Assembly: GCF_042453785.1 (NCBI RefSeq)
Contig: NC_091673.1
Location: 13,921,501-13,985,500 of the forward strand
Length of the DNA stretch: 64,000 nucleotides
Reading direction: 5' to 3'
Origin: Malus domestica
Taxonomy: Eukaryota; Streptophyta; Magnoliopsida; Rosales; Rosaceae
Shown here: piece after piece, positions 25,018 through 61,165 of the stretch
How positions within the stretch are numbered: the first letter of the stretch is position 1
Layout: each line of letters opens with the position of its first letter
Made by a program: the position numbers and the translations under genes
Notes under the pieces: model-generated
The model's database searches: none
What the model saw: the letters and a program-made list of their open reading frames with translations, nothing else
What the model was told of the DNA's origin: nothing

Positions 25018-25026
25018 TTATAAAAC
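25018..25026 (+). promoter_or_regulatory. TATA box candidate of the acyl carrier protein gene
   Basis: TTTATAAAA lies about 145 bp before the ATG at 25169 and is followed by a CT-rich leader (25065-25160), the usual plant arrangement. No transcript start was measured. Confidence 0.5.
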
Positions 25027-25168
25027 CCTGTTTAAAGACTCCCTTTTTCTTCCAAATCATAAACCCCCACTCTCTCTCTACAGTATACTCACACTCTTCG
25101 TGCTCTCCGCCCCTCTCCCCTCCATTTCTCACTTCTTTCGATATCAGATCTCTCCTCTGTCGACTCCA

Positions 25169-28803: not shown

Positions 28804-29232
28804 TCATGTATCCCACAACAAATACTTACACCCTAAGAAACTAACTGCATGAACCAATACACATGCAGCTGAAAATGCAAAAGTAGCAACCTTTAGAGTC
28901 CAAACTAAATCTGCAGATGCTCCTGAAGAAGCTGGCAATGACCCAAATGGTGAAAGTGCAGGGTAAGGCGGGTCGTCGAGATTCAGAGGGCTCGGGTTGG
29001 AGGGAATGGTGGGTATGGAGGAATCAGTTGGAGTGGTAGGCACCTCAGGACCTGGAGATGGCAAAAGTGGAGCTATTTCTGGAGGTACGAGTCCTTGCAG
29101 ATTAGAAGATGGAGGGGAATTGGTGAAGAATGCTGGGGAAGCTGAGATGCTTGACGCTTTTGAATTGAAGGAAAGAAGAGGTGAGGCCATGAGAGCCATC
29201 ATGAGGGCTACATTTAACCAAAAAGAGGCCAT
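28804..29232 (-). CDS. Classical arabinogalactan protein, AGP25/26/27 type, single exon
   Basis: The frame encodes 142 residues from MASFWLNVALMM. The in-frame ATG upstream at 29253 is less likely, because the hydrophobic signal peptide begins directly at MASFW. After the signal (about residues 1-27) the chain is rich in Pro, Ser and Ala, with blocks such as GLVPPEIAPLLPSPGPE, SSIPTIPSNPSPLN and PFGSLPASS, which match the pattern of Arabidopsis AGP25-27. Pro residues in such contexts are hydroxylated and carry arabinogalactan. The C-terminus has small residues (SSGASA) followed by a hydrophobic stretch, as in a GPI-anchor signal, but ends in a few polar residues (KYLLWDT), which is slightly unusual. 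Location is expected at the cell surface. A TATATAA on the minus strand (about 29281-29287) lies about 50 bp upstream. Confidence 0.85.
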   Translation of the reverse strand: MASFWLNVALMMALMASPLLSFNSKASSISASPAFFTNSPPSSNLQGLVPPEIAPLLPSPGPEVPTTPTDSSIPTIPSNPSPLNLDDPPYPALSPFGSLPASSGASADLVWTLKVATFAFSAACVLVHAVSFLGCKYLLWDT

Positions 29233-29374
29233 TTCTAATGATGAAGATATCAATTCTCACAAAATTTAGTGGAGTGTGGTTTATATATTTGTGTAGTGAA
29301 AGTGCTTTTGGAGTTTAACCAAAGAAAAAAGTACTTTGGGTGGAAGTTATGATTGGATTTTTTAAAGGATGACT

Positions 29375-29527
29375 ACAAGTTGTCTTAGTGGTTAGTACTA
29401 GCCATTTATTTATTTTCAATTATAAGTAAAAAGTCTTACGTTCGAATTTAATGCTTGACAAATTCTAACTAATTTATTCTTTCACCCCTTAGGTAAATAT
29501 ATCATTTGTATACAGAGAAAAAAAAAG
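29375..29527 (+). mobile_element. SINE-like element, tRNA-derived (tentative)
   Basis: GTCTTAGTGGTTAGTACTAG resembles a polymerase III A box, and CTTACGTTCGAATTT about 50 bp on resembles a B box. The 3' part (CCCCTTAGGTAAATATATCATTTGTA) resembles the 3' part of the SINE at 43510-43674, and an A-rich tail follows at about 29516-29526. I did not find target duplications. Confidence 0.4.
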
Positions 29528-29529
29528 AT

Positions 29530-29898
29530 AATTCTCACTTTACTCTCTCAAGTATTGTGAAAATTCGCACTTTGCAATCCTTAGTTTTTTTCTTCTCAGT
29601 TTCATACCTAAACTTTTATTTTTCTGACACTTTAATATTTCTGTTAGGTTTTTTGTTAGTTTTCCATTAAATAATGACGTGACATAATTTTGGCCCACCA
29701 TATTTGCCAAGAAGTGGTAGCCCAAAATTATACACATTATCACTTAATGGAAAACTTAATGAAAAGAAGATTAACTGAAGTATTAAAGTATCATAAAAAT
29801 CAAAGTTTAGGTAAGAAACTAGGACAAAAAAAACTAAGAGTAGTAAATACGAATTTCACGACACTTAAGTATAGTAAAGTTAGGATTACCCTAGAGAA
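29530..29898. mobile_element. Long fold-back element
   Basis: The left half (ending near 29705) and right half are inverted copies along almost their whole length. TACCTAAACTTTTATTTTT near 29610 pairs with AAAATCAAAGTTTAGGTA near 29800. TTAGTTTTTTT near 29582 pairs with AAAAAAACTAAGAG near 29829. GAAAATTCGCAC near 29560 pairs with TACGAATTTC near 29850. No protein is encoded. Confidence 0.6.
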
Positions 29899-30885
29899 AA
29901 TAATGATTATAAATATTACTTTTTATATTTATATACAAAACTATTTGTGAAAAAAAAAATAATTGAACTTAAGAACCCTGGTGCGGGTAAATGCACTTAA
30001 CAATCGAGTAGCAAGTACCTTGTAGATGATTAGAAGTTTTAGGTGGGACCAATGTGCCACATGGGTAGAGTGGAGTTTCGATGGATTTGAGCAAAACAGG
30101 TTGGCATTTGTAGGGAAGAGACAAAGATCAAAGATCGGAGATCACTTGACCAGATTTTTTAATTGGAATTAGATGATTTTTTTTCTTTTTTCCCTTTTGG
30201 TCTGTGACCTTGCTGTCCCCTTGCTTTTCTGATAATCCGAAACCCTAAGTCCTAATCTACTTGATTACTTCAATGTTACAAAACAATCACTCACCCCATA
30301 TTGCACGATCATCAAGTTGATTAACCTCTTGTTTGGAACTTTTAGATATGAGTAAATTGTTGATTGTTGTGCATCTCATAGATCAGAAAGATTTTGTTAT
30401 GGTACAACCGATATAATGCGTATTATAAGCACAAATGTTATACAATCGTTATTAGGTGAGTTAATTTTACTCCATCTAATCATATTATAATTTACTCCAC
30501 CAATCATATTATCATTTACTTGACGATTATAAGGCATGAGCATCGTAGGAAAGTACTAGGGAACGTTTGAAGGTAACACTTCATGGAAAAGTTGATTGAT
30601 GTCATAATTTGTTAATCCATATAATCCATCTTAAAACAAGAATTGCAAAAGCGAAACAATTACCACACTTGTATTTTATTCATTTGCGCTTTTTCACTTG
30701 TTTCAAGCTACAAAATTAAATAAATTAACGATAAATAGGAGACAAAGACAAGCATTGGGAAAAGTGCAAGAGAATAAAAGGCGAGTGAGAAAATTATTTC
30801 CCTTATAAATTCAGATACAACAAAGAGCTAAACAATCACTAGATTTCCTTGAGACAGTTTATATTTTTTTAAACATAAGAAATTT
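29899..30885. other. Intergenic sequence
   Basis: AT-rich sequence between two small mobile elements. I see no gene or further repeat. Confidence 0.45.
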
Positions 30886-31350
30886 GAGTAAATTGTAGTA
30901 ATAATCCTTTGACTTTAATTCAATTGGAGCAATGATCCCTTAACTAAAGATTTATTACCATTGATCCCTTAACTCATCAAAATGTGCAGCTATGGTCTCT
31001 TAACTAAAAATTCATTACCATTGGTCCCTCAACTTTAATCAAACTGGAGAAATAATCCCTCAACTTTATCCTAATTGGAGCAATGGTCCTTCAACATTAA
31101 ACCAATTGTAGAAATGATCATTCCAACATAACTCATTTTGACATAATTATTACGAAGTTGACAAATAGAGCCATAGCTACATGTTTTAACGATTGAGGGA
31201 CCCCAATTGTAACAATGGTCATTCCAACATAACTTATTTTGACAAAATTCTAACAAAGTTGACAAAAAGGACCATAGCTACACATTTTGATGAGTTAAGA
31301 GACTAATGGTAATGGATTTTTAGTTGAGAGATCATTGCTACAATTTACTC
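30886..31350. mobile_element. Mutator-like MITE, copy 2, with perfect 10 bp target duplication
   Basis: The termini GAGTAAATTGTAG and CTACAATTTACTC are perfect 13 bp inverted repeats. TAAGAAATTT is present at both 30876-30885 and 31351-31360. Internal blocks of the TCCCTCAACTTTA type match copy 1 at 23029-23463. Confidence 0.88.
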
Positions 31351-31443
31351 TAAGAAATTTTAATGTATAAAATGAACATAAATCATGCCAATCACCCCAA
31401 ACCCCCCCCCCCCAACAAAACCCCAACCCCAAAAAAAAGGAAT

Positions 31444-32500: not shown

Positions 32501-35500
32501 TTACAGGCAGCGAGGCAGCCGTTGCAACTCCACAGCCACATGGAAAGCAGCAGTGGCTAAAACATGTACACCTGAACTTTTAATCTCAGAAACTATGCCT
32601 TCAATTCTTGAGATCTCGGGTATAGATATCGACAGTATCATTGCGTGTAACAAATATTGCCTACAGGAATAACCAAGGGCATGCAGCACGCGCAGCACCA
32701 ATAAGTGAGATGCGCCCCTACGCCAAGACTCGAGGACTGCAGTAACTTTTGGAAGATTAGTTAGCAGACCAGCAGTGGCTTCCCTTGGAGCTGCCTTGAG
32801 CAACAAGACAACGCATTCTGAGGCCAGATCTACCACATTTCCTCCATATGATCTACTCAACTCTAGTAAGACGCCAACATTGCTGCCGAAGTCCATGATA
32901 TCTCTAATGCCTTGTTGCTGATCAGCACCACTTGCCTCAGAAGACGCATCACCCAGAAGATCAGGTTCTTTTGAATAGATGAAGCCTTTTCTACCACTCA
33001 CTGACCGTACAAGGAAAGCCCTACATAGGCCAAGGGTTGGTTCCAGAAAATCTTCCATATCCTTTGCATATACAAACTCTAGAAGGTTTCCTATTTTCCT
33101 AACTACCTTCAGTTGAGAAAGTAACTTGGTTTCCATCTCAGGTGCCGATGTCAGAGCCAGACATAGCATGACATTGTTCACATTTGCACTTGAAAGATCG
33201 CCGAGCAAAAACTCAAAGCATTGTGAGACTATCTTAAGATTTAGAATGTCTGCAATTTTGATGTAATTAAATTCAATAAGCATCACAAGAAGCTTCTGTG
33301 CGTACAAGGGAATCGGATCTTCATCTTCAATCAAGGAAGGGTAGAGAGGAAGAAAATTCTTATTGGATATGGATTCCAGTTCTTTGGACCTTTGTTGATC
33401 TTCAGATTGTTCATTCAAAAAAATTACCATCACGTCAAACAAAATTTTCAAGCACAGAAACCTGGCATCACCATCCTTGTTACCCTTATAAAGAACAGCC
33501 AAACTGGGGAGAACCTCACGAATAAAAATGTCAGGGCTTTCAAGAATCACATGCGACTCCTCTGAGACAGACTCAAGAATTCGGAGAAGGGTAATCTGAA
33601 AGTCATCCCTGCCCTGTGAATCAATAACAAATTATTTATCAGTATCAATGTTACCGTATTACGTTCTCTTTTCATTAATCTGTTACTTTTTCTCGTCATA
33701 AGTTGGGACTAAACTACCTTTCACCCCACATAGTAGAAATTTAGCATAAGTCCAGACTCCACGCTAATGGACTTTTATGCTGTAGCCTTCCACATGCCAA
33801 CTTAAAAGCTAATGACATGGTTTTACTAGTGATTTATTAAGAAGAAAAAGGGGACTGTTAAATAGTGGAAATGATCAGGTTGTCACCTGCCCAGGCATTT
33901 ACCAACCTATAACAACCTCGGATCACTTGCCGAGACACTGTACCTAAGCACTGGGAAAGTTACATAACATCCCAAGTTCCAGTAACTAACAGTTAGTTGA
34001 TCTAATCAGCCAAAAGTATTTTAGTACTACTGTTTTTTACACCATAATTATAAGCATTGTGATAGCAACAACAAGATTAGCAATGACTTAAACACAGACT
34101 GGTTAGGCTGCTACCAACCTGAAATGGTGTCTCCACGAGTTTCATTAGATTTGCCAACTGCTGCAGGACCTGTTCATTAACCACTTTGCGCTTAAATGAC
34201 AAGCTTCGAAGAAGATGGAGAACTACGGGAAACGTATAAACATTGGTCTTTGGAGCAGCTCTACTGTTAAGGGGAGATTGATACCCATGGCGCCTACCTC
34301 CCATCATTTTCTGAATATCTCCAGTAATAGTATCCAGTAAACTGGGTATAGCAGACGCCACAACACACACAGATGCCTCTAAACACTGCTGCACATAACG
34401 GTCCTTCTCTTTCACCAACCTGTCCACTGCAGAAAGCAACTTGGCGTGGCAAAAAAAATGTGGCAGCCACCTCCTACTGCTCTTACAAAGAAGAGCAACA
34501 AAAACAAGTGCCTTTCCCTTCAAAACCTCACTTCCCTGATCAATAAGAGACACAAGACTTGGGACAAGATTCTTATCCTCCATCAATGGGAGGAGGTACC
34601 TGCCAACATTCGTGAACACATGACTTCCAAGCATGGCCATGTTTAAGAGGTTTAAGCTTATTTGCTGCTCACGCAGGCTGCCCTTCACAAGTGCCGATGC
34701 TATGTCCTTTAAGGAGAGCTTCTCTATTACTGGTTGAATGCTAGGTGGGTTAAAACGAACCAGACGGACCAAGCATGATCCTGCTGTGAGCCTCATGCTC
34801 TCCTGCTTTCCAGCAGCCCTATATAAATAACACAGGTTATTAATCATGTCCTGGCTAGTCAAACGAGCTGCCCACGGCCCTGCTTGACTGCAAATATTTT
34901 CTATTGTCCTCAATGCATATAACTGAGTTAAGTCATCCTCTCCTTTTCGTAAAATTGATGACACCAATGAAAGCAATGCATTTGAAACCTGCCCCAAGGA
35001 GGATAACTTATCAGTGACAAAATTGAGTAGAAGTGAAGGGAAAAAAAGGGAAAGTACTCAAGGACATCCAGTAATAACAGTTCTCTTGGTAGAACATACT
35101 CTTTAGCTCCAATTGATGAGGAAACAAAAAATGAGGGTTTACTAGAGCATATACAACTCCAGATTTCACTCGGTTAAGAATAAAAGTACAGGCTATTTAG
35201 AGTATAACAGTCAATCTTTATATGATCAGGAGCAATGGTACAAGTTGCAATAGTTACGACACTAACCTGCCACCCAGATGTGGACCGGCTTTCCTTTGAC
35301 GGAGACTCTGCTGGATTGCTGTCTGCCTGCTCACTTTGAGTGGATATATAGAATAGCAACTCACCCAAGGCAGCCATTGAAAACCTCCTCACCTTTTCCT
35401 GCTTGTCTCTGAGGCCATCAGCAAGTGAACCCAAAATTCCTGAATCTGCCAAATCATCTTGAATAAAAGTAGAATGTCTAATCAACAAACCAACCAGTGA

Positions 35501-38206
35501 AGCAAGTTGGACACGCAAAGCCAAAGCCTTGGACAACCGGAGCATTTTAACAAGCAGAAGCATGATAGGTCCATTGGTCAAGATATTTGCAGCATCAGCA
35601 TTATTGCTTAACATCTCAAGGTATCTAATTACATTCTGCTTCTCGCCAATGCTACTGTTCCCATTAAAAATGGCTATAATCTTACTGTTGAGTGCATCCA
35701 ACTGCTCTTTAGAGATCTTCACAAAGTCAGAGGCTTGCAGTGCCTCAAAGGGAAGAGAAGGAATTACCTCCGAATTTTTGTCAGATTTTCTGCTGGGCAT
35801 CACAGGTCTGACTGAGAGATCTGATGGATGCCAAAGAACTTGTGAAAGGTTATTTGGAGATTTTGAAGAATCATAGTCAACTGCAGATCCTGAACCTTCT
35901 TTAAATCTCTGATTTTTAATTTGAGGACTAGCACTGGGTGGAATTGCAGCCATTTCAATACTCTGGGGAGATGGTTCCTGATCATGAACTCCGGATTCAT
36001 CTGAGGCAGGTGTACTAACCACAGGCAGGGCATCTGATTGGTTCAAGTTGTTTTCCATCTCTTCCATTTTACCCTGGTGCTGACTTGAAAATTTGTTGTC
36101 GGGTGGACAAGCTTGGATATCAGACCCATCAGATTCATCATGTGTGTCATCTTCCGTGTTCTCATTAAAGTCAAGTTCCATGTCCGTGTTCTCAATTTTG
36201 ACTTCAGAATCATTCTCAGTATTAGTAGACACTGGCCTGCGGTAGTTTTCCTTCTCATTTTCCCTCTGCAGGTTCTGTTTTGCAATTCTTGAGAGCCTCA
36301 AAAGATTCACACCCCTCGTGGCACCAGAAGGATCCTTTTGCTTTTCACCAACCCCTCTGCCAGAAACCTTTGCTTGAGTTCTGCGGCTTCCAGGTGTACC
36401 CTTGACTGGAGTCTCATGACCGTTTGCTCCTAAAATAGTATTCTCATCCTGCTTAAAAGTTCCTTTAACATCCTTTTGGCAAGATTTAGGAGTTCTGATT
36501 TGGGAAGATTTATCACCATTGCGCTCTGACAGACACGGCCGAGCATATTGCTCAAGCATATTATCAAAAGCAGGCTGAGGAGGTAGAGGCACTAAAGTTA
36601 ACTTAGTCCTCCAGAAAGCATGACCACAAAGTTCAGGCCACTGTATTCTTTCTGCTGGATCCTTTATGAGTAAAAAATTTATTAGATTGACAAAAGAACG
36701 GCTAGGAGTTCCAGGTAGAGCCGGAGTTGGATCTGAGATAATGGATTTTACTAGCTGAGTAAATTCCCTACCCACAAAAGGAGGCCTCCCAGCATAGCAC
36801 TCATACAGTACACACCCAAGGGCCCAGAAATCAGATGCATATGAATGGACACCCCCTTCTTCAAAAAGCTCAGGAGCCATATAACAAGGTGTCCCGCGTT
36901 TCGCTTGTGGCAACTAAACATATACAAGAAGGGAAAGCTACATTAATATTCTCATATTTTCTAATTTCAGATTACTTTATCCAAAAAAAAAAAATCACAT
37001 GTTGTGGCAAGAAAACCTACTGAAGAAGAAGGTATTTGTGATATATCACTCAATTTTCTCGCCAATCCAAAATCACAGAGCTGCATTGTGCAAACATACT
37101 AGTTCAGATGAAGAGAAAAAAAAACATATAAAAAAATTGAGAGAAATATGCAAGGACAATAGCATGCCTTATACCTTTGTACGGCCATTCTCGTCTAACA
37201 AGATATTTGATGGTTTCAAGTCACAGTATATGATTCCCTTTGAGTGTAAAAACCTAACCGGAAGTGAACATTTCGAGAACATGAATTAAATGAAGTAAAG
37301 AAATAGAGACTCGTAACAAGGACAAAAAAATGAAGCAATTCAAGGTCCTTACAGCAAAGCTCTAACAAGGTCACACCCAAGGTCATGAATTGACTCTTCA
37401 GGTAGCTGCTTATCCTGCATTTCCATACATTATCAGTATCACAGTTCTAAAAACACAGAATCATCTCGATAAAAACATTATCACCGGTACCAAATTAGCA
37501 ATGATTCCGTCTGTACAAAATAATATATCCACAAACTCTACACATAACTTTGATGCGAGGCTCAGATTAAGTGATTAATTACCTGGTTTAATAGTGTCAT
37601 CAAATTGCCCCCAACGCAATACTCCAAAACCAACCACAAGTGAGCAGAAGTTTCATACCTGCATTTTATAGCGGCACACAAAATAGGAAATTCGCAAATA
37701 AACAATTCAATTCTTATCTCGAATCAAAGATAAACAGGTATTGATATTTCGCAAGCAATTATCCGACGAAGAATTCTCACCACCAGTAAAACTTGAGGAT
37801 ATTTTGATGATCTAGAGTGTGAAGAATCTTCACCTGCATCAAATGGAAAACTCTATAACCTAAATCGTCTTCGAATTTGAATTATCCAAACTAAATTAAA
37901 GCCCATACATTGCTAAATCCGAATTTTGTTTCATAGTTTGCTTACTAAACTTAATTACTTACTTCTTGGAGAAGCTTGCTCTTCTGTGACTTCTCGACGC
38001 TCTTAATCGCGAAGTACTCAATCGTCTTCTTCTTCCTCCCTTTGTACACAGTCTGCAAATCCAACGCCAATCGGATTAATTAAGCAACAAATTGAACTAA
38101 AAGTCGCTGAATCGGCAAGTTCGGAGAAACGCAAAAGAGCTTGCGAAGCAAATCCTACCGAGCATTTTCCGTGGCCAATGGCTTCGTAGATGTGGTACTG
38201 GTTCAT
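32501..38206 (-). CDS. RUK: RUNKEL (ULK4/Fused-like) kinase with HEAT/ARM repeats, 10 exons
   Basis: Exons in transcript order: 38206-38159, 38052-37963, 37833-37781, 37658-37583, 37414-37353, 37253-37175, 37080-37021, 36913-35267, 34988-34119, 33613-32501. They join in one frame to 1365 residues, practically the length of Arabidopsis RUNKEL. The N-terminal kinase domain (about 1-255) shows IGHGKCSTVYKG (glycine loop), EYFAIKS (ATP lysine), GIIYCDLKPSN (catalytic loop, YCD instead of HRD), LCDFGLARKL (DFG) and RGTPCYMAPELFEEGG. An acidic, low-complexity middle (NTDMELDFNENTEDD) precedes a long alpha-helical repeat region. RUNKEL binds phragmoplast microtubules and is needed for cytokinesis in Arabidopsis; the animal relative ULK4 is regarded as a pseudokinase. 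The start is the first ATG after a GA-rich leader. No disabling change is seen. Confidence 0.96.
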
Positions 38207-43747: not shown

Positions 43748-43997
43748 TGTTATAAACTTCTTATTTAAGTGTGATTGTGTAAATCTTATATTAGATTTTA
43801 TTCTAGTTATTATTCCCTATTACGACCTGTATTCCTTAGAGGTGAATGATTTCTTTTATCTCTTATTACTATAAATAAAGGCACTGCGTATGGGGAATAA
43901 CAACATTCTCTACACAACCATACAAACACATATTTCTCTCTATTCTCTCTATGCGTTGCCGACCCCTTCCATTGTCAGTGAAACATAGGCCACAACA
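43748..43997 (+). repeat. Left LTR of the copia element
   Basis: 250 bp, TG...CA. It contains ACTATAAATAAAGGCACTG (promoter and leader) and a CT-rich 3' part. It matches 51705-51930 with scattered substitutions and a deletion of about 20 bp near the start in the right copy. Confidence 0.88.
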
Positions 43998-45657
43998 CGT
44001 TATCAGCACGTTCCTACCATTGCGCCTAGGAATCTGACGTGGAAGCTTTCTACATCAAACCAGTTCACCAATATCATCACGCAATCAGGTTCTTCCAAAA
44101 TAATGTTTTTTATCTTGATATTTTTGCAGCCCTTATAGCATGAACATTCACCATAATGCATGACTCAACTTTATATTTTTCAAATTTTAGATTCTACATA
44201 AATTGTGTATGCATTATATCCATAATTATTGAATTATATGAATTTGATATTGCCATGAATTGTATCAAATATATGTCCATGCATTAAATTATTTATATGA
44301 ATATGCATTGAATTAATCTGAAATTGAATTTTTTTTATTAAAATATGGATTAGGGTTTCATTCTAAACCCATCCACCGTGTGAGCCGTGGCTGGTGAGCT
44401 ACCAAGTCGTCGAGCCACTGGCCCCAGGCCTGCAGCCTATATGGCTAAGCTGAGATGCGAGACCACGAAGCCGAAGCTATGGGTTTTTGGTCTGAAACCC
44501 AGAAAAAAACCTAACGCCTTGCATGGCGTCTTCTCCCTCATAGGTGGGCCTGTAGCCCCATCCTGACCTTCGATCTTCGTCTTGACGACCTGAAAATAGT
44601 CCCCCGATGGGTTTTTGACCGAGATTTTTTTGAATCTCATTAGTTTTTCTTCGAAATTCCGAGTTAATTTTTCTAGGTTTTCTAAACACGTTGAGAGTCT
44701 CTACTTTCCGTTTACCTTTATACCTCGTCATCGAACCCACGATTTTTTTGCCGTGATTGTTGCACCATGACACGACTGCTTGAAGCGGTGGTTCCGATCT
44801 CTTACTTCGACGAGTTCACCTAGCAAGCGCTAGGGTGTCTGGTTCAAACCCCAAGCCCACTTAGGCTTGGCCGGTTCTCGGTGACCACTAGCCCTTTAGG
44901 CTTTGGAGCTCTTCTTGGTCCAACATCGGCCCTCTTTGGCCACGGTGTTCGCATGTCTCGCACCACAGAGGATCACAGCCCGCGTGGCTGTTACGGCTCC
45001 CATGTACAACGACGCACATGATTGCGTCCCTCGGGTACACATGTTTGCGAAGCACCAGATCAGATCCCGTTTGGGCCTTTGTCTTTGGGCTTGCACCTGT
45101 AACCTGTTTTCTATGATGCTAGGCCTACCTACATGCTAGGCATGTGCCTACCCCAGCCCAGTTTTGGGCCTGGACCTTGCGAGACACCATTTCACTCAGC
45201 CCACCCATGGACTTTGGTCCAAATTTTTGGGCCTCGAGTGTTAATTGCCTATTTTTTTAGGTACTTTTGGGTTTTATAATTTTTCACTCACACTTTAAAT
45301 TTGGCTCGAAGTCCAAATAATTAATTCCATTATAATCATAGACCTGAAGTTCTATTTGCATATTTTCTTGTTGCATATTTTTGTATATATATTTGTGTTT
45401 GTCTGCATGAACATATGAACCCGAAGTTCATAATTATTTCAAAAGCTGAAGTTTCTAAAAACTTGCCTTGTTTGAAAACCTGAAGTTTTCCTTAAAAACA
45501 TCACCCATGAAAACCCGAAACTTTTTCATGCAAATTTAAACCAATACATGTCTATTAGAACCTGAATGTTCTACTCCTATGTGAATGGATTGATTTTTTT
45601 CTCCATTACACTAATCACATCTTATCCATTTATTTTGTGATAAGAACATGTCGAATT

Positions 45658-46568
45658 TGAACAAACTCAACTTTACCGCTTTTCTTTGGAAGAAACTACC
45701 TCAAGTGGGTCCAAGATGTGAAGTTCCACCTTATTGCAAAGAAAGCCACTGCCATGATCTTCATCCAAAGACATATTCATAACGTACTACAAACCGAGTA
45801 CCTTGTTGAGGAGGATCCACAAACACTCTGGGTCGCTTTAACTGATCGCTTTGATCACCAAAATGACATCTTCTTGCATGAAGCAAAAAATGACTGGCAA
45901 CATTTGCGCTTCCGAGACTTTAAGTCTGTGAATGAATATAATTATGAAATTTGTCAAATTCGATCACTTCTCAAGTTCTGTAACGAGACTTTGACCAAAG
46001 AGAATCTCTTGGAGAATACCTATTCGACCTTCTCTACTACTAATATTATTATGCATCAACAATATAGGGCTCATAAGTTCACTAAGTTTTCAAATTTGAT
46101 CTCTATTTTACTTCTCGCTGAAAAATAGAATCAGTTGTTGATGAAAAATCATTAAGCTCGACCTATTGGGGCGACTGTTGTGCCTGAAACACACTATAGC
46201 ATAAACAAACGCCCAAAACACCAAAATAGATGTGGTAGGGGCGGCTAGAAGCCACCCCGTCAAGGTCAACAAAGGCAATGCCCATCTAAGGAAGGAAACC
46301 GAGCCCAAAGCGCTCTAACCTTGCTCCCGAGGCCCCAAACTTCAAGAATAAGGGCAAAGTACTTGAAACTATGGATGAGGACATGTGTTATCAATGTGGT
46401 TCAAAGGACCATTGGTCCCATGTTTGCATAGCTCCCCATAAGGTTGTAACTGAATATCATTCTCGTCGTAAGAAGTTTGAATCAAATTTTGTGCAAGTGG
46501 ATAAACTGGAGAGTACCAAGATGAAGGTTTCTGACTTTCAAGAAACTATTACTCCAATGGAAGATTAG
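45658..46568 (+). pseudogene. copia gag remnant with zinc knuckle
   Basis: The frame 45718-46128 encodes a UBN2/gag-type segment (YLVEEDPQTLWVALTDRFDH, LRFRDFKSVNEYNYEICQI). After a break and frame changes, 46371-46568 encodes CYQCGSKDHWSHVC, a C-x2-C-x4-H-x4-C nucleic-acid-binding knuckle at about 46386-46427. Several stops separate the parts, so no intact Gag can be made. A protease would be expected at about 46570-47000 but is not clearly readable. Confidence 0.85.
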
Positions 46569-47049
46569 AATCTTAGACGTAAACTATTTTTCTAGTTGAA
46601 ATTTAGACAATGGGGCCGAATTCCACCTAGTGGCCGAACCCCCCCTTTGTATTTGGTTTAATTTTTTGAACAATTTTCCTTTATGTTTGGATTATTTGTT
46701 AGTGATTTGTTTTTAGATGTTAAGTTTTTAATTAATTACCATCCTTGAATACTTAAATTATTTTGAATGGATATTTGTTTTTAAGAATTTTTATGCATGA
46801 GACCGATTCAAATTAATTTTTATTCTAGGTATGACTAGTGGGAAAGTTAGTTGTTTGTCACATAGTGCAACCACGTACACCGTTTTGCGTGAACATATCT
46901 ATTTCACTAACTTCATACCTAAGAATGCACCTCTGACAACCCTCTCTGGCCCATCTAACCTAATCGAATGATACGGTAAGACACGTATAATGTTGTCCAA
47001 TTGTACAATTTTGACCATTGATGGGGCTCTCAAATGATCTGGAAGAACA

Positions 47050-48058
47050 TTGTTGAGTTTCAAGGACATTAGAGATAATAATTACCACGCTGAAACTTAT
47101 GTAGAAAATGGAGTTGAATTTTTGTGCTTAACTTTCTACGAATATGGCCAGAAGCATACTTTAGAGAAGATGGAGCGTATCCCGAGTGATATGTATGCTA
47201 TGACCATATGCCCTATAGAAAGCCACTATGTGGCCGGCCCTACCTCTGGGATCACGCACGAAATTACACTTTGGCATGATCGTTTGGGACACCCTGGACA
47301 AATAGTGATGCGCCGTATCCTCAAATCATCACACGGGCATCCACTAACCCGACTTTTATGTTCGATTCAAGGAATCGCATGTCAAACCTGCTCCATGGGA
47401 AAACTTATTATTAAGCATTCTTATGACAAGATTCGTTCGAATCCTCCTATTTTTCTATAAAGGATTCAGGAGGACATGTGTGGACTGATTCACCATCTAT
47501 TCAGACCATTTAGATATTTTATGGTTTTGGTTGACGCTTCCACACGTTGGTCACATGTGTGCTTGTTGTCCACAAAGAACGATGCATTCTCCAAACTGTT
47601 GGCTCAGGTTATCAAGCTCAGGGCTCACCACCCTGATTATCCAATCAAATATATTCGATTGGATAATGCTGGAGAATTCACATCTAAAACTTTTGATGAC
47701 TATTGTATGTTGGTTGGGGTTGAAGTTGAACATCCAGTACCCCATGTTCACACCCAGAACCGCCTGGCAGAGGCATTCATTAAGCGCTTACAAATGATTG
47801 CTCGATCGTTGGTCATATGTACCAAGCTCTCGATTGTTGCTTGGGGTTATGCAATATTGCACGTATCCATGTTGGTTTACCTAAGGCATGTTGCGACCTA
47901 ACCATATAGCGTCATTCAGTTGGTTACCAGATACGAACCCGACATATCACATATGCACATTTTTGGTTGTGCTGTATATATGTTGATTTCACCGCCCTTA
48001 GGTATAAAAATTGAGCCTTAGCGAAAGATGGGAATCTATGTCGGTTTAAAAGTATGAA
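47050..48058 (+). pseudogene. copia GAG-pre-integrase and integrase remnant
   Basis: 47050-47460 encodes the zinc-binding region (TLWHDRLGHPG, then CQTCSMGK). After an in-frame stop, 47476-47901 holds the integrase core (VLVDASTRWSHVCLL, IKYIRLDNAGEFTSKTFDDY, AEAFIKRLQMIARSL), which supplies the D, D and E positions. Further stops follow. The sequence breaks off near MGIYVG at about 48050, where an intact copia Pol would continue. Confidence 0.88.
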
Positions 48059-50571
48059 TTGACGAAAAAACCCCCAGAGGCAAGGATTTTGACTTCCGTT
48101 GACCATTGTTTAAAGAGACGTATGACTCATTCTTTTAGCATATTTTATACTACTCGATGGTACGAACACGTAGGTGCAAACCAAATCGAATTTGGAGTTA
48201 CGAAGGAGATTTTATGTATTTACAAAGTTGAAGGACATTTTGGTAAATTCACAATTCCAGATATTTAACCCTTAGTTATTTTATTACTTTCCTATAAAGA
48301 ATTTCTATGTTGTGGGTCCCACACCCACTCCTCACTCTTTCCTCCTATCCCGTGTCATCTCTCTCCCAAAATCTTGATCCCTCTATTTCAAACTCTCTCA
48401 TTTCTTTTAAACCCTTGGAGCATACTCTTGTTGACACTTCACTATGTTTATTATTTTAAAAATCTCTCTCCCTTTGCTTTCATCTTCTTCTTTGAAAGCA
48501 GAGAGGTAAAAATGGGCAGTAACCAACCATACCATTCATTCCCTCACTCCGGTGCATCCTCACTGTCTCAGTCTCTCATTTTCTCAACAACACTCTCTCG
48601 GACCTCTATCTCTCTAAAACTCTCTCAACTCAACTCTCTATGCACTCACCATGCACAATGACACTGCACCACCATCACTAGCCTTCTTTTTAACCTAGTG
48701 GTTAATTGCGCTTGCATGATTCCTCAAGGTATTGGGTTCGAAGGTTGGTAGTGGTGATGATGATGATGATGAAATGATGAATGGATGTTTATTATCAAGA
48801 GAAATGTTAAATGACTCTCTCTCTCTTTCTCTGTTCTCTGTGCAACCATGTAAGTCTCGAAATCCTTCTTTTTTTTCCTTTTAAACATGTTTAGGTACCG
48901 TTTTTAACCTTTGTATGTGATTTAGGGAAATATTTGGTGTAGATTGGATGAAGGAGAGGATTTTCCAGTTTTCTGGGAAATGTAAACCGTGGCCATCTGA
49001 CCACTTTCAGATCAATTTCACAACCAACACCAACCATGATTGGGCTTCCAATAGGTATAGATCGATTCCTTACATTTCTATCTTCAAGTTGGTTTTTGTA
49101 CCATCGAATTTGGTTAAGAAATGAGCTTGTTTGGTGCTCGGGAAGTTAGACTTGCAACCTGCAAAAACTGCAGGTTTCATGAAGAAGGCGCGTGGGGAAG
49201 CCACAACATGGTGGCGCGTACGGTGCGTGGTTGCCAGTGTAGCCACTTTGTGGCGGCGTGTGGAGGAACCTGAGGTCCCTTCTTAGGTTTCTCGACGTGT
49301 CAGACCTGAATTCGTCCTCCATTTTCTAAAATTCAACCATTTTTAAAAAGTTCCTTTATTAGTCGTACTTTGTACAAAAATGCGTAATTACGTTAGTACG
49401 TTATATTTACGTAAATGTTTTCGTTTCTAGGTTAAACACATCACAAGGATCTTCGATGCCTGCGAGGCGGGTTACACCCGACGACATTATCTGTGAGTGG
49501 GTCTTTGCTTTTAAATATTATATATTTATTTAGTTTCCATTTATACATTTGACAAAGAATTTCCTACGCATGCCTAGATTAGACTAATGTTTATAAGAAT
49601 TAGCGAAATAACGGAAAATTACAAAATTATTATAAATCATATGGGATGCACATGTATGCGTACTTTTATGGGGTTTTAATGGCCATGATTAATATTTTAT
49701 TTATTACTATTATGTCGATGTGAATTATCGAATTACTGTGGCACGACTATATTTATGTTATTTGCTCATCATTTGCTACACCAGTGTTAGTACTCGCCCG
49801 GGTCAGGGCTAATCTTTCACATGTATGTGCACATCGCACCGTACGCTTACTTTGGATCCATTGTAAGTGCCAGTCCTTTCCTAGATTGCTATAGGCAATT
49901 AGAACTCGTATGTGCTGCGCATAACGCCAGTCTTTATGTGATTGTAGTACTAGAGCGTATATCATTGTTACACCCAGTCTTGTTCATGTCGGAATATATC
50001 TGCATGAACTCGTGTGTCAGCATATGTCGATGAACACTCGATATAGTATGTTTGCTTATGCGAGATTATGTGAATACATACGTCATGTACTTACCTACGA
50101 AACATTGTGTTGTATTGAATTCTTGATATTTTGCAGGCTACTGTAAGTATTTTCTTACTATACGTAATATGTATATTTTGTAAATTATACTTGTTTTATG
50201 GCGAGGGGTTATTACGTTTTCAAAAAGGTTTTTATAAAGCTTTATTTTTAGGCCCACTTACCCTTATTTTTCGTCCCTCCAGGTTTTAATGGCTGAGCTT
50301 TTGTGTCGACGAGGATTTTTGGTAAACTGTTGTTGTGGGAATACTATCGACGGTATAATTATCATCCTATTTTATTGTACTTTACATATGCTCTGATATC
50401 ACGTGTGAAATGAGTTTATTCCCGCTCACAAGTGCACTCTTATATTTAGGCACCTTTAGATAATTAAATTTATTTACATTTTCCACATCACTACACTTTA
50501 TGGCTTCATCACCCTCCTGGTGTCGGCCATCACAGCTCAATTCGGAGTCCAGGTGGACATTCCAGGTTAGG
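48050..50571. mobile_element. Foreign insert replacing the copia reverse-transcriptase core
   Basis: No copia-like reading frame is present between the integrase end (about 48050) and the RNase H-proximal segment at 50574. The insert has non-coding character, CT-rich parts, a GAT trinucleotide run (about 48757-48772), and ends in GGTTAGGGTGTGTCAC. That resembles the LTR-like terminus at about 41507, so a solo LTR is my first guess. A tRNA-like phrase (CCTAGTGGTTAATTGCGC, then GGGTTCGAAGG, about 48695-48745) may be a SINE fragment. I could not define target duplications. Confidence 0.4.
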
Positions 50572-50573
50572 GT

Positions 50574-51290
50574 GTGTCACCTATGGTCGTTCAATCGCAA
50601 GATGCAAAACTAGATCCCTTCCGTCCGAATGAGGATGATGAAGATATTTTGGAATTTGAAGTTCCTTATCTAAGTACTATAGACGCTTTATTATACTTAG
50701 CTCAATGCATTAGACCCGACATCTCATTTGCTGTTAATCTTTTGGTAAGATACAGTAATGCACCAATATGCAGACACTGGACTGGTGTTAAAGACATCTT
50801 CTATTACCTTAAGGGTACTACGAATCTGGGCTTATTTTATCCCTACGAATCCTCGAGTGATGTTGCACCCCCTTATATCGAGTTGATTCTCGCTTTGTTA
50901 GTTATACTGACGCATGATACTTATTTGATCCGTACAACGCGCGTTCTGAAACTGGTGATGTCTTTACCGTTTGAGGCACCGCAATCTCTTAGAGGTCAAC
51001 TAGACATACCTTAATTGCCACTTCGTTTAACCATGCTGAAATTCTTGACTTATATAAAGCAACTTGTGAATGCTTTTGGTTGAGAGTAGTTGTAGGCCAT
51101 ATTCGAAGATCCTGTGATCTTTACCTCGTCGTTGATGTCCTGACAACGATCTATGAAGACAACACATCATGCATCGAATAACTCAAGAAGGGTTACATCA
51201 AATGAGACAACACCAAGCACATTGCATCGAAGACGACGTTTCATAAGCTTGTTCAAGGAATTGGTATGCGTAAACTTTCTGAGTTGTAAC
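50574..51290 (+). pseudogene. copia RT C-terminal and RNase H remnant
   Basis: 50574-51014 encodes DPFRPNEDDEDILEFEVPYL, then LAQCIRPDISFAVNLLVRYS and WTGVKDIFYYLKGTTNLGLF, the conserved link between reverse transcriptase and RNase H in plant copia elements. About 51150-51290 holds further remnants (EDNTSCIE-like, then GIGMRKLSEL before a stop) in shifting frames. Confidence 0.85.
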
Positions 51291-51704
51291 ATTGCTAGTT
51301 CTCTTTGAAAATATGTTAAATTTAGGGGGAGTATCATGAAGTATACTTGCTTGATCTTAATGTACTCTTTTTCCCTACGATTGTGCGCATTTTTTCCCAT
51401 TGGGTTTTTGCTACCTAACGAGGTTTTGACGAGGCACCCACCTTGGGTTAATCATATCCTTGATGACGTTCTGTAGACGTTTCATTTGACTTTGCATTGC
51501 TTACACATTTTTCCTTATAATATAGGTTTTATCCTTACTCTGGTTTTTACCATAGCCATAGGGCTTTTTGTGAGACTTAATTCCTTATGCAAGTTCCTAC
51601 CTTATTAAGAATAGTGTGTTCTCAAAATCAGTGTCAACGAGTCGACTTCCTCAACCTCTACATGATGCCAAATCTACTTGAGTATTTACACACTCAAGGA
51701 GGAG

Positions 51705-51930
51705 TGTTATAAATTGTGTAAATCCTAGATTATTTTTTATTTTAGTTATTATTCCCTATTAGGACTTGTATTCCTTGGAGGATAAGGATTTCTTCTCTCT
51801 CTTATAACTATAAATAAAGGCACTAGCGGAATAACAAGATCCTCTACACAACTCTACAAACACATTTCTCTTTATTCTCTTTCTGTGTTGCCGGCCCCCT
51901 TCCCCTGTCAGTTAAACATAGGCCACTACA
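51705..51930 (+). repeat. Right LTR of the copia element
   Basis: 226 bp, starts TGTTATAAATTG and ends GGCCACTACA. It is followed directly by TTTAT, the copy of the 5 bp target duplication. Confidence 0.88.
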
Positions 51931-56100: not shown

Positions 56101-56157
56101 TAGTCCAACATTACACCAAACACTTCATTAAGTTAGTCCAACTTAGTTCTTGAAACT

Positions 56158-56514
56158 TGTTGATGCACAAAACCGGAGGTCTTGGAACAATGTAAGTCCG
56201 ACCGTGAATCTACAAGTAATGTAAATAACACAAGATGTATCGTGGTTCACACCAAGGTTTGGGCTACGTCCACACTGATTGTATTTATTTGAGGGAGAGA
56301 GCTCTGAGAGTAAGAGCGTTGAGAGGGGGTGAGAGAGCCTAGGAATTGGCCTTTGAAATGGCCTCTCCTAATTGTGAGGGTGAGAGGTCCTTTTATAGAA
56401 TAAGGACTCCTCACTTATTACATATTTGCCCCTTCCTTTATCACATAATTACATTTAAGTCCCTCGAGTATTTGTACGAGATCTAAATACGAGGCCCTAA
56501 ATATGGTATAAACA
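56158..56514 (-). repeat. LTR (3' LTR in element orientation)
   Basis: 357 bp, paired with 60761-61119. It shares TGATGCACAAAACCGGAGGT at one end and CTAAATATGGTATAAACA at the other. Confidence 0.9.
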
Positions 56515-56731
56515 GTAGTCCCCTAAGTCTTCAGTCAAAAGAGTCTTTTGGCTGGAGACTTGAAATTCAGTCCATATGTGGGCCGAAGTAACTAGATGTT
56601 GTCTTAAACTGATGTTCGATGTGAGGCGGTGCTCAATCTGAAATGATGCTCAACTAGAAATAGCACATGCTGCGAGGCTGCTTGGCTCGTGGCTTATGTT
56701 GCCTTGGTTGGCTCGGCTTATGGCGTTGAAG

Positions 56732-57426
56732 GTGAGGGGGTCCCTTTTATAGAATAAGGGTTCGCTCTTCAATACATAAATGATGGGCTAGAGTTGATGC
56801 TCGGGGCGAGGCGGTTGCTTAGTAGGCGGCGATGCTCTCTAATGGTGGTGAGGGAGTCCCTTTTATAGAATAAGGGCTCGCTCCTCAATACATAAGTGAT
56901 GGGTTAGGAGTGATGCTCGCGGCGAGGCGGTTGCTCAGCTGGCGGCGTTACTCTCTAATGAAGGTGAGGGAGTCCCTTTATAGAATAAGGGTTCGCTCCT
57001 CAATACATAAGTGATAGGTTATGAGTGATGCTCGCGGCGAGACGGTTGCTCAGTTGGCGGCGTTGCTCTCTAATGAAGGTGAGGGAGTCTCTTTTATAGA
57101 ATAAGGGCTCGTTCTTCAATAAATAAGTGATGGGCTAGGAGTGATGCTGGCGGCGAGGCGGTTGCTCAACTGGTGGCGTTACCCTCTAATGAAGGTGAAG
57201 GAGTCCTTTTTATAGAATAAGGGCTCGCTTCTTAATACATAAGTGATGGCGTATGAGTGATGCTCGCGGCGAGGCGGTTGCTCAGCTGACGGCGTTGCTC
57301 TCTAATGAAGGTGAGGGAGTCCCTTTTATAAAATAAGGGCTCGCTCTTCAGTACATGAATAATGGGCTAAGCCCCCCAAGTATTTTTCATGAGGCTCAGT
57401 TGAGGCCTAATATATGGTACATAATG
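56732..57426. repeat. 116 bp tandem repeat, six units
   Basis: Units start with GTGAGGGAGTCCCTTTTATA at about 56732, 56848, 56964, 57079, 57195 and 57311. The spacing is 116 bp except one 115 bp step. Each unit also has AATAAGGGCTCGCTCCTCAA, GTGATGCTCGCGGCGAGGCG and TGGCGGCGTTGCTCTCTAAT. The start of each unit (TTTTATAGAATAAGG...CTC) is also found once in each LTR (near 56391-56415 and 60995-61019), so the array may have grown from LTR sequence. Confidence 0.9.
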
Positions 57427-57595
57427 TAGACCCCAAGTCTTCGGTCAATAGAGTCTGTTGGCTGAATACTTCAAATTCAATCCATGTATGGGCCGAAGTG
57501 GCGGTTGTTTGGAGGCGGTATTTGTATACCCTGCATTGAAGCTTTGCAAATGAAGCTTTGAAGCTAGAGCTCTGTAAATAAAGCTTTTGAAGCTG

Positions 57596-57800
57596 ATTGA
57601 CATGAGTGATGCTTATGAATGTTTATGTTGATTGACATGAGTGATGCTCATGGATGTTGTCATGCGTGATGCTCATAAATGTTAACATGAGTGATGCTCA
57701 TGAATGTTGACATGAATGATGGTCATGAATGTTTATGTATGATTGTCATGAGTGATGCTCATGAATGTTTATGTATGAATGACATGAGTAATGCTCACGT
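57596..57800. repeat. Short tandem repeat of the GACATGAGTGATGCTCATGAATGT type
   Basis: About seven units of 24-36 bp, each with ATGAGTGATGCTCATGAATG and a variable TTTATGTATGATT spacer. TGAGTGATGCTC also occurs within the 116 bp repeat, hinting at a common origin. Confidence 0.8.
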
Positions 57801-57807
57801 ATAATTT

Positions 57808-58215
57808 GGAGTACTGGGCGTTCTTTTGATCACCTGGTTGGTGGCATGAAAGAGAGTACGGGTTGTATATTTCATCACCTAGTTGGTGGCATGAATGGCT
57901 AGTTGCCAAATGATATTTAGTGTACGAGTTGTATATTTCATCACCTGGTTGATGGCATGAATGACTAGTTGCCAAGTGATATTTAGAGTACGGGTTGTAC
58001 ATTTCATCACCTGGTTGGTGGTAATAGCGGCAGGTTACCGAAGAATTTTGGAGTACTGAGCGTACTTTTGATCACCTGGTTAGTGGTAATAGTGGCAGAT
58101 TGCCGAATAATTGTGGAGTATTGGGCGTACTTTTGATCACTTGGTTGGTGGTAATAACGGCGGGTTGCCGAATAATTGTGAAGTACTGGGCGTACTTTTG
58201 ATGACCTGGTTGGTG
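57808..58215. repeat. 60-70 bp tandem repeat in two variants
   Basis: Units are marked by ATCACCTGGTTGGTGG. In 57840-58010 they carry GGCATGAATGGCTAGTTGCC and GAGTACGGGTTGTATATTTC. In 58010-58215 they carry GTAATAACGGCGGGTTGCCG and GTACTGGGCGTACTTTTGAT. About six units in total, so the array is a two-stage amplification. Confidence 0.85.
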
Positions 58216-58917
58216 TTATTTTGGGCTTATGGGCCTTCACCATCTACACAACATTTCAGCCCATTTATTTTAGGCTTTGCCCTTTTTTTTGGCGTTATTA
58301 TTATTACCCTCTGATGAGGTTTATACAGACGTCTTCGAAAGATAAGAAAAATAAATTACATGTTTTCAGCATGTTAATGGGCATCTTCTGGTCCAACAGA
58401 AAGTAGAGACAAGAAACCTTGGTAGGCATCTTCTTATCTTTAATCATGTTATCCCGTGGGATAGTGGAGTAGTGGAATAGTGGAGCATCTTCTTTTCGGC
58501 TTTTCCTTTTATGCTTTCTGCTTTTCTTTCTGATTTTCTTTCCGTTTCTTGACCCTGATGAATATGGCAGACAAGGAATGATAATAGATTTGATAATAAG
58601 AAAATACTCATATCTCCTCTTTTGCTTTCTTCTTTTCACTTTCCTCTATTTCTTTCTCTGAGCTGTCATGCATGTGCACCTTTGAATCTGCAGGTTGGCC
58701 ACGATGGTGATGCTGTGTAGGCACTGTTGGAAAAGGAGGAGCCGATCACGTTCTTTGCTTGACCAAAGCTTTGCAAACACTGCTTTTGTCGTCTTCGTTC
58801 CTGTTGCACGCTCCCACACTGCTGCTCAACCTTGACGAAGCTAGATCTTTCTTTAGGGCCCTAAGCTCCTCAGCCGATGCCATCGTCTTTTCCACAGGGC
58901 AGATCCAATCATCATTG

Positions 58918-59757
58918 CTATGGGATTGATTCACGTTCTAACCCACATTCCATTTTTGCATATTGCATTGCCGATTTGCTTTGCTTCAAAATATCAATTC
59001 CGTGAAACAGTGCCACATGAACGAGGGTTGCAGTAAATCTTGCAAATCCTGATCCAATGGACAAAGCAAAAAGCTGGCTAAGAGAAAGCTTGCCGTAACT
59101 ATTATAGGCATCAATATTAATATCAAACTGGGGTGTTAAGATCTTGGTAATGTCGTATTTATGCCCGGTAAAAGTGAAGAGCTTGCTGGAAAATATAGGG
59201 AATTTCTGAGCATCGAAAGTGTTAAACTTCCAGTAACAAAGAGGCATAATGATGTAGATGAAAATGACAAATCCAAACCCATCATTGAGAATGGAAGTCC
59301 ATGGCGTGACGAGGGGGCTGCCGTGATAAGCAGAAATCCTAGCCCAATCGAAGGTGAAGACACCAACACCAAATCCACTATAACCTGAGCCAATCTGCTG
59401 AGCTATGATACTGTGTGGCCAAGCCCATCAGACCCATGAGAAGAACGTTAAGATGGGGAAAAGATAACCAGGGAATGCATAGTAGAGAAAGCTTGCTGTC
59501 AAGGCAATGAGGAAAAACTGCATCGGGGTAAGGCCTTTCGCTTTATGGTCTTTTTCGTGGAGTGCTCTGAACAAAGAAACCTGAGCAACGTTGGAAGGCC
59601 ACCATATTTCCACCGAGTCGACCAAGTACTTCCTGAGAATCCCAGCCCATCCATACCCAATTACCTGAGTGGTGAGGACGATAACGAGGCTAAGGATAAA
59701 GCTCAAGCTCAGCTTGTAATAAGCCTTTATAATGGTGATTGCGCCAATCGAGTAGGC
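58918..59757 (-). pseudogene. Intron-free oligopeptide transporter (OPT family) fragment
   Basis: On the minus strand the frame reads GGDAYSIGAITIIKAYYKLS, then QVIGYGWAGILRKYLVDSVE and IWWPSNVAQVSLFRALHEKD. It continues through AWPHSIIAQQIGSGYSG, FDWARISAYHGSPLVTPW, YWKFNTFDAQKFPIFSSKLF, TKILTPQFDINIDAYNSYGK and FALSIGSGFARFTATLVHVA to about 58946. This is the central-to-C-terminal part of a plant OPT (peptide or metal-chelate transporter of the plasma membrane). It is continuous without introns but contains a stop (FFSWV-stop-WAWPHS, near 59425) and lacks the N-terminal half and the end. It lies in sense orientation inside the LTR element, so it is a captured, non-functional copy. Confidence 0.85.
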
Positions 59758-60490
59758 ATCACCCCTACCGTGGGAAAATAAGTGTCTAAGTTCAGAATCA
59801 CATCAAGGAGGGCAGGGTCGCCATTCCCAATCCTATTGAGCACAGCCGGGTTGAATGTCCGAATCCAATCAAGGATTTCAAGATCGACGCCTTCAGAAAG
59901 CTCCGATTCCCGTCCGGATCTGAAGTACTTATAAATTAAGACCATCACTAATAGTGACACCGGTAGGATGATACGCGCCACTGAAAACATAACTTTTTGT
60001 GAGATTGCGGCGACGACTGTAACTGAAATTGGGTTGCTAGGTTTTGCAGGATCGAAAAACCCAATCTTCGTTGAACAAATCGCAATCTTCCGTCGGCAGT
60101 TCAATCTTCTCCTCCTCCTCTTCTTCCTGAGAAGAACCCAACAATTCAATCTTCTGATCTTTGTGTTGTTCGACGATGGATTTCAGATCAACCGGCTCTT
60201 GGGTTTCATCCGAATTGTTGTTCTCCAACTAGGTTTCTTCTGAACTGTGATCCTCCAACTGGTTTCTTCTGAACTGTGATCCTCTAACTGGGTTTCGTAT
60301 AGCATCAGAGCCATCGAGATCTGGGTCTGTGATGCCACCGACGGCCGCCTCAACGACGACGCAGACATAGTCGGAGACATCATCACCGTGGAGTTTATCA
60401 GAGAATTGAATCGGCGTGGGAGGAGATGGAGGAAATTGAGAACTGGAGCCGACAACTCGTACAAGAACCCTAGATCGCTGGTCTTGTTGC
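59758..60490 (-). pseudogene. Unrecognised coding-like segments fused to the OPT fragment
   Basis: Minus-strand frames with coding character lead into the OPT fragment. One is acidic (60228-60037: IVEQHKDQKIELLGSSQEEE and onward). The next (60149-59750) has a hydrophobic stretch (ARIILPVSLLVMVLIYKYF) and then LEILDWIRTFNPAVLNRIGN, GDPALLDVILNLDTYFPTVG. Further upstream GAGGATCACAGTTCAGAAGA occurs twice, with a third degenerate copy. I do not recognise the source gene or genes. The junction to OPT lies at about 59757, where the frame changes from NLDTYFPTVG to GGDAYSIGAI. Confidence 0.5.
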
Positions 60491-60760
60491 TGCTACTTCT
60501 GCATCATCTTTCTATCTTATTTTCTCGGGAAAATTAGAAAGATTGAGGTTTTTGAGATGGGGAGCCCCATTTCTTTTCTAGCCGTTCCTTTTTATTTCCT
60601 TAGAAAGTCGGTTGTTTGGATTGGAAAGAAATAATAGAGAGGAAAGAAAACCAAATATGGGATCTGGGAAAGCTTTGGTTTGTAGATTCATGGCGGAGGT
60701 AAAAAAAATAAAAGAGAACCGACACAGCTTTTCGTGTCGTTTCCCACAGACGGTGCCAAA

Positions 60761-61119
60761 TGTTGATGCACAAAACCGGAGGTCTTGGAATAACGTAAAT
60801 CCGACTGTGAATCTGCAAGTAATGTAAATAACACAAGATGTATCGTGGTTCACCTCAAGGTTTGGGCTACATCCACACTGATTGTATTTATTTGAGGGAG
60901 AGAAAGCTCTGAGAGTGAGAGCGTTGAGAGGGGGTGAGAAGGCCTAGGAATTAGCCTCTGAAATGGCCTCTCCTAATTGTGAGGGTAAAGGGTCCTTTTA
61001 TAGAATAAGGACTCCTCACTTATTACATATTTGCCCCTTTCTTTATCATATAATTACATTTAAGTCCCTTCAGTATTTGTACGAGATCTAAATACGAAGC
61101 CCTAAATATGGTATAAACA
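60761..61119 (-). repeat. LTR (5' LTR in element orientation)
   Basis: 359 bp, paired with 56158-56514. The minus strand has a TATA-like CTATAAAAGGAC near 60990-61003, and the primer-binding-site-like TTTGGCACCGTCTGTGGG follows immediately at 60760. Confidence 0.9.
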
Positions 61120-61165
61120 AAACTAGTTCAGTTCGAGATAGTACGGTCCAACAAACGCACCCATA

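Follow-up and report, generated by a model that had tools for sequence, protein, structure and literature searches.

Probable Repeated Capture of Spliced Host mRNAs by a Non-Autonomous LTR Retrotransposon Family of Malus domestica

How does a retroelement in which no pol gene is found come to carry a fragment of a transporter gene, without introns and in the same orientation as the element itself? This question is raised by a long terminal repeat (LTR) element at positions 56158-61119 of a 64,000-nucleotide (nt) stretch of the Malus domestica genome (the window; NC_091673.1, positions 13,921,501 to 13,985,500, on the contig denoted here as C13). Only scattered cases are known in which LTR elements have captured host mRNA, and the mechanism has therefore been argued from single events. 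The initial annotation of the window proposed that part of an OPT transporter gene had been taken from an mRNA by template switching, and that the element might belong to a multi-copy gene-shuffling family. We find pieces of four host genes in this element and different cargos in most of the related copies. The best explanation, and in our judgment a very probable one, is the repeated template-switch capture of spliced host mRNAs by a non-autonomous LTR family that is copied in trans.

The element, 4962 bp in length and in minus-strand orientation, is a defective non-autonomous LTR retrotransposon (Table 1). The two LTRs are 93.6% identical to one another and are flanked by an exact 5-bp target-site duplication. 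A primer-site-like sequence, TTTGGCACCGTCTGTGGGAA, is found at 60760-60741 on the minus strand, immediately inside the right-hand LTR, and the orientation of the element was assigned from the position of this leader. Most of the other copies have GGCGCC at this site, and a TTTGGCGCCGTCTGTGGGAA-like stretch that is conserved adjoining the 5' LTR is a putative primer-binding site. No gag or pol domain was detected among the eight window frames that were scanned. The paired LTRs, the duplication, and the lack of gag-pol, all described in the initial annotation together with a Ty3-type primer-site context, are borne out here.

The OPT domain (PF03169) was identified in two minus-strand frames, with E-values of 2e-28 (58918-59427) and 7.6e-27 (59428-59802). 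Judged from the coordinates, these constitute a single frame interrupted by one in-frame stop. A genome search with 58918-60110 matched the sources piecewise and returned no second copy of the whole stretch. The OPT portion was recovered as four pieces, 90-96% identical, at C5:46458924-46461157, and a paralog on contig C10 is 89-94% identical to the element. Besides C5/C10, the contig pairs C1/C7 and C13/C16 also carry paralogs. Comparison at the base level demonstrated that the element lacks three GT-AG introns of the parental C5 gene (539, 744, and 122 nt). Alternative GT-AG choices of 746-752 nt exist for the second intron, and 744 nt fits the element. Because the three C5 introns are absent, the OPT portion was derived from a spliced mRNA. 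The expectation that this fragment would be intron-free, in sense orientation, and of mRNA origin was thus correct, and since the C5 gene has introns across this part, an intronless parent does not account for their absence.

Over the 808 aligned nucleotides of OPT sequence, the element branch carries 36 changes (11, 13, and 12 by codon position), compared with 3 on the C5 branch and 31 (7, 2, and 22) on the C10 branch together with the shared stem, one site being ambiguous. The even spread over codon positions indicates that the element copy has been unconstrained, and the branch pattern indicates that its divergence from the C5 gene followed the C5/C10 duplication. The element branch, at 0.045, somewhat exceeds 0.031, which is half of the LTR divergence, and the capture is accordingly dated to the time of the last insertion or slightly earlier.

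The slot between the leader and the tail contains the four host-gene pieces end to end, with no element sequence between them and all in the sense of the element. Three of the four have been placed, on C5, C7, and C16. An unrecognised coding-like segment had initially been reported to be fused to OPT; a further segment is indeed present, but it resolves into three more host-gene pieces, and the single captured gene has become four. The C16 source is by eye a predicted membrane protein. A 213-nt stretch of this gene is absent from the window copy and from the related copy L058, and another 33 nt are absent near the end; neither gap is counted as an intron. The outermost nucleotides, 60669-60648, are common to L058 and have no match in the C16 gene. 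The C7 parent of the TBL piece contains a PMR5N domain (E 5e-24). The exact source of the CCCH-type piece was not found in the genome search, the matches being 72% over the whole piece on C3 and 85% over 100 nt on C13 and C2. A member of this family on C14 contains a zf-CCCH domain (E 6e-8), and its N-terminal kinship was recognized by eye. Eight matches to this piece lie within C14:25144873-25167012, which suggests a tandem CCCH-type cluster; within C14:25150000-25156000, a CCCH-type gene related to the piece is adjoined, by eye, by a Ty3 integrase-like frame.

The junctions between the pieces coincide with short shared homologies, of about 5 nt for C16/TBL (4 of the 5 in the C16 gene), 2-3 nt for TBL/CCCH, and 3-5 nt for CCCH/OPT. 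At the junction of OPT with the tail-side segment, ATGC(A/G)AAAATGGA, the homology extends to 12 of 13 nt. Such junctions agree with the prediction of template switching. They also bear on whether the OPT and other pieces could be processed pseudogenes, made by a long interspersed nuclear element and inserted later into the LTR element. The OPT interior is spliced and is found whole nowhere else in the genome, as expected from this explanation, and an interior absent from the other copies had been named at the outset as the sign of a later insertion. However, neither poly(A) nor a flanking duplication was seen by eye, including at the OPT/tail junction, the four pieces abut and meet at shared homologies, and related copies hold other cargo in the slot, with no empty site. 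We therefore regard a later insertion of pseudogenes as very unlikely.

Table 1. Features of the window element and of the related loci
Feature	Position	Strand	Remarks
Target-site duplication AAACT, left copy	56153..56157		
3' LTR	56158..56515	-	
Family tail with tandem arrays	56516..58361	-	
Segment of about 603 nt common to other copies	58362..58964	-	L035 and L055, 93%; parts in L054, L056, and L057
Cargo 4, OPT transporter fragment	58949..59777	-	Spliced C5:46458924-46461157 gene, 95% over 808 nt
Cargo 3, CCCH zinc-finger-type gene family fragment	59773..60047	-	
Cargo 2, TBL/PMR5N-type gene piece	60046..60296	-	94% to C7:30325854-30326104
Cargo 1, C16 gene piece	60292..60669	-	60647-60553, 84%; 60549-60315, 89%; 60317-60292 beyond the 33-nt gap
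Primer-site-like stretch (60760-60741) and leader common to the compared copies	60679..60760	-	
5' LTR	60761..61119	-	Ends TGTT...AACA
Target-site duplication AAACT, right copy	61120..61124		
Nested gag-pol element	L070 2518 to L071 7824 (C16)		Gag, reverse transcriptase, RNase H, RVT_3, and integrase domains
ELP1 propeller fragment	L065 2077-2598	+	Antisense to the element; Pfam E 7e-20

The exact combination of cargo in the window is single copy, but the frame formed by the LTRs, leader, and tail is multi-copy and surrounds different cargos. The suggestion of a multi-copy gene-shuffling family therefore holds for the frame and not for the interior. Using the 3' LTR as the query, 40 of 3529 candidate places were scored and all 40 matched at 90-100%; with 60100-60761, 40 of 1611 candidates were scored and most of the scored matches were to the leader only. 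These candidate numbers are rough bounds on the copy number. Copies were taken from the matches to the LTR, from those to 58918-60110, and in one case from those to 60100-60761, and fifteen with both leader and tail were compared first. Ten more were added by rank among the leader matches, two being skipped (C2:19289659 and C13:8242694). Other sequence follows the leader in all ten; the tail was found in nine of them and not in L069. In L051 the LTR was found without a leader or a long tail match, and no leader was seen in L050, which lies upstream of the L007 LTR. The LTR ends TGTT...AACA were found in the window copy and in 11 others, and exact 5-bp duplications, all different, flank 12 of the 12 copies for which both outer ends of the LTRs were read, although L031 is a weak case since its duplication lies in a TATA repeat. 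The LTR divergence (Kimura two-parameter) ranges from 0.017 to 0.145 among the copies and is 0.062 for the window. The latter value corresponds to about 2.4 million years at the rate of 1.3e-8 per site and year used in PMC5664825, which may be too fast for a tree.

Twenty-nine cargos (47,577 nt) were compared with one another. L056 was omitted because no leader occurs in the stretch read, the cargo of L070 was outside the comparison, and the cargos of L054 and L069 were cut by hand because the start of the tail was not located. The cargo sequence was determined to be 77% private (blastn, E 1e-5), and 18 of the 29 cargos have no stretch of at least 150 nt in common with any other. One whole cargo is common to L035, L054, and L055 (89-91%), and the 29 copies thus contain 27 different cargos, some of which share parts: L031 with L066, L067 with L068 and L069, and the window with both L057 and L058. 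Beside the tail, the 603-nt segment recurs with three different upstream cargos, and the C16 piece beside the leader recurs in L058. The window copy is a mosaic: one set of copies has its tail and the 603-nt segment, another has its leader side and the C16 piece, and the TBL, CCCH, and OPT pieces lie in between. The idea that cargo at the 3' side is older than that at the 5' side, which would be expected if switching happened only in minus-strand synthesis, was dropped in view of the leader-side sharing in L058, L031/L066, and L067/L069.

The shared cargos, at about 82-94% identity (L035/L054/L055; L031/L066; L067/L068/L069; L058/window), are what one would expect if a few old cargos had been inherited vertically and diverged past recognition, the apparent variety being a matter of age. 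However, most of the cargo does not align in copies whose LTRs, leaders, and tails can still be aligned (mostly at about 80-95%), and the cargos match different protein families. Vertical inheritance as the main source of the variety is the least probable of the alternatives that we considered.

Host protein fragments were recognized in 14 of the 26 cargos with at least one frame scanned (the first fifteen, L054, and L060-L069). Above the Pfam cut-off are Sugar_tr and ankyrin repeats (L039), Sulfate_transp (L041), DIOX_N and PfkB (L043), Rad21_Rec8_N (L044), QWRF (L046), Arm (L047), ADH_N (L049), Cyt-b5 and RVT_3 (L061, the latter just above the cut-off), CN_hydrolase (L062), Aldo_ket_red (L064), and DUF4408 (L065). 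Four frames (L045, L040, L039, and L042) were compared with the sequences of solved structures. L045 matched the strigolactone-esterase D14/DAD2 type (5e-13), L040 matched CYP51 (4.6e-9), and L039 matched tyrosine aminotransferase (2.8e-8); the L042 frame had no match. Below the Pfam cut-off are EIF3I (L042), IRX15 (L031), DUF1995 (L044), F-box (L066), and peroxidase (L061). The frames selected from the cargos of the 26 elements gave no gag, reverse transcriptase, or integrase domain.

The frames of the first fifteen copies were picked partly by eye and were mostly sense; eleven antisense frames scanned from these copies gave no match. Length alone decided which frames of L060-L069 were scanned (the two longest on each strand), and matches above the cut-off were obtained in sense at 4 of 10 loci and in antisense at 1 of 10. 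The idea that all cargo is in sense was dropped after a CCCH-type piece was found in antisense in L031 and an ELP1 fragment in L065 (Table 1). Sense orientation thus prevails among the cargos but is not a rule. An origin from antisense RNAs, or a template switch during plus-strand synthesis, may explain these two pieces. They would also be accommodated by capture at the DNA level, by a Pack-MULE or Helitron-like process inside the LTR element or by gene conversion. This alternative has to contend with the three exact intron losses in OPT and with the joining of sources from different contigs at a few nucleotides of homology, and we consider it highly improbable, more so than the later insertion of pseudogenes.

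The capture of spliced mRNAs could proceed as follows. The family, retaining only the LTRs, the primer-site leader, and the repeat-rich tail, would be copied in trans by a Ty3-type helper. The reverse transcriptase in the particle would leave the element RNA at short homologies, switch to one or more spliced host mRNAs, or to further element RNAs, packaged in the same particle, and then return to the element leader, and the product would integrate with a 5-bp duplication. The packaging of mRNA, the helper, and this order of events are what we infer from the spliced OPT piece, the four host sources, the junction homologies, the differing cargo in related copies, and the 5-bp duplications that were observed. 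Several points weigh against template-switch capture. The mechanism is drawn from sequence, and splicing has been demonstrated for the OPT piece only. The 213-nt gap relative to the C16 gene was considered as an intron and dropped when no GT donor was seen. The shorter junction homologies may be due to chance, 12 of the 26 scanned cargos gave no recognized protein, and the antisense pieces go beyond the simple copying of mRNA. The sharing of whole or partial cargos indicates that cargos have also been inherited or exchanged. A more far-reaching proposal sees the family as a permanent shuffler of genes. Its members, present in many copies, would normally have a fixed slot between leader and tail, and each new insertion would refill this slot with a chimera of spliced host mRNAs that had been packaged together. 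Hundreds of different host gene fusions would then lie dispersed under LTR promoters in one genome. We judge the chances of this to be only a little better than even.

A candidate for the helper is found at C16:653600-670600, where a cargo element with the 5-bp duplication GCTGC contains a nested gag-pol element in its tail. The two 512-bp LTRs of the nested element are identical, and this Ty3-type insertion is therefore recent. The sequence TTTTGTGCATCAACATTTGGCGCCGTCTGTGGGAAACGACAC is contained in its LTR end and primer site; the window differs from this sequence at one base and the cargo copies at a few. The remainder of the LTRs is mostly different between the nested element and the cargo family, apart from one 47-nt stretch at 81%.

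The cargo family resembles several known systems. Bs1 of maize keeps part of gag, and in this it differs from the window family, where no gag was found in the frames scanned. Bs1 is likewise an LTR element with several host-gene segments, three in that case (PMC13317346), present as exons only (PMC4717578). The window element also combines pieces of several unlinked host genes, here from four sources, with intron absence for OPT. Bs1, in the accessible parts of these reports, is one element with one cargo, whereas most copies of the apple family have their own. In soybean, 30 gene-bearing terminal-repeat retrotransposons in miniature (TRIMs), 1.2-1.4 kb in length and from 7 of 289 subfamilies, are small non-autonomous LTR elements with exons, no introns, and 5-bp duplications, and GmaRetroS15 contains pieces of three genes (PMC4717578). 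The accessible text describes no change of cargo from copy to copy, unlike the family reported here, whose elements are about 3-5 kb. In pepper, spliced host genes also occur inside LTR elements: about 72% of the retroduplicated cases of the nucleotide-binding leucine-rich-repeat class lie in elements without gag-pol, in some cases with two or three genes in one element (PMC5664825). That report, in its accessible part, concerns one gene class and genome-wide counts and does not describe a fixed slot with changing chimeric cargo. The AACA/TGTT subfamilies of Rosaceae were set aside as different, having non-palindromic ends and being Copia-like or TRIM in the available text (PMC5659011). No family with multi-gene cargo that changes between copies was found in the literature searched, in part as accessible excerpts; most subscription papers and Repbase were outside the search, and an unnamed repeat entry is possible.

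A fixed slot with changing cargo offers many capture events in one genome. Counts can be made of their junctions, splice states, orientation, and parent expression, which allows a direct test of the template-switching model. Such a family could also yield chimeric reading frames, together with RNAs in sense and antisense to many host genes, and it is a trap for gene annotation.

Three tandem arrays lie in the tail of the window element, with 116-nt units at 56611-57442, 25-35-nt units at 57572-57810, and 65/66-nt units at 57853-58218. Tandem repeats before the 3' LTR are also described for the Retand/Tat-type Ty3 elements in the accessible part of one report (PMC11963269). A further likeness is that the nested gag-pol element, which has a second RNase H domain, contains the LTR end and primer site of the cargo family. 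The cargo family itself cannot be placed by its reverse transcriptase because no pol domain was found there in the frames scanned. The one sense frame of the tail that was scanned gave nothing above the cut-off. By eye, the 116-nt repeats in the window contain a motif resembling the TATA-like part of the LTR, and positions 91-126 of the LTR have several matches, at about 83-94%, in the tails of the fetched copies. The tail may contain an array of promoter-like pieces. With LTRs of about 360 bp, a window copy of 4962 bp, and most other complete copies at about 2.7-4.7 kb, the family is beyond the miniature range of the TRIMs.

Elsewhere in the window, the regions 23054-31351 and 43774-51824 contain repeat pairs 7.9 kb apart and 84-88% identical, perhaps other LTR elements; they have no LTR, leader, or tail match to the cargo family (E 1e-3). 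Long open frames at 32504-36913 on the minus strand, about 20 kb from the element, appear by eye to be a protein-kinase-like gene.

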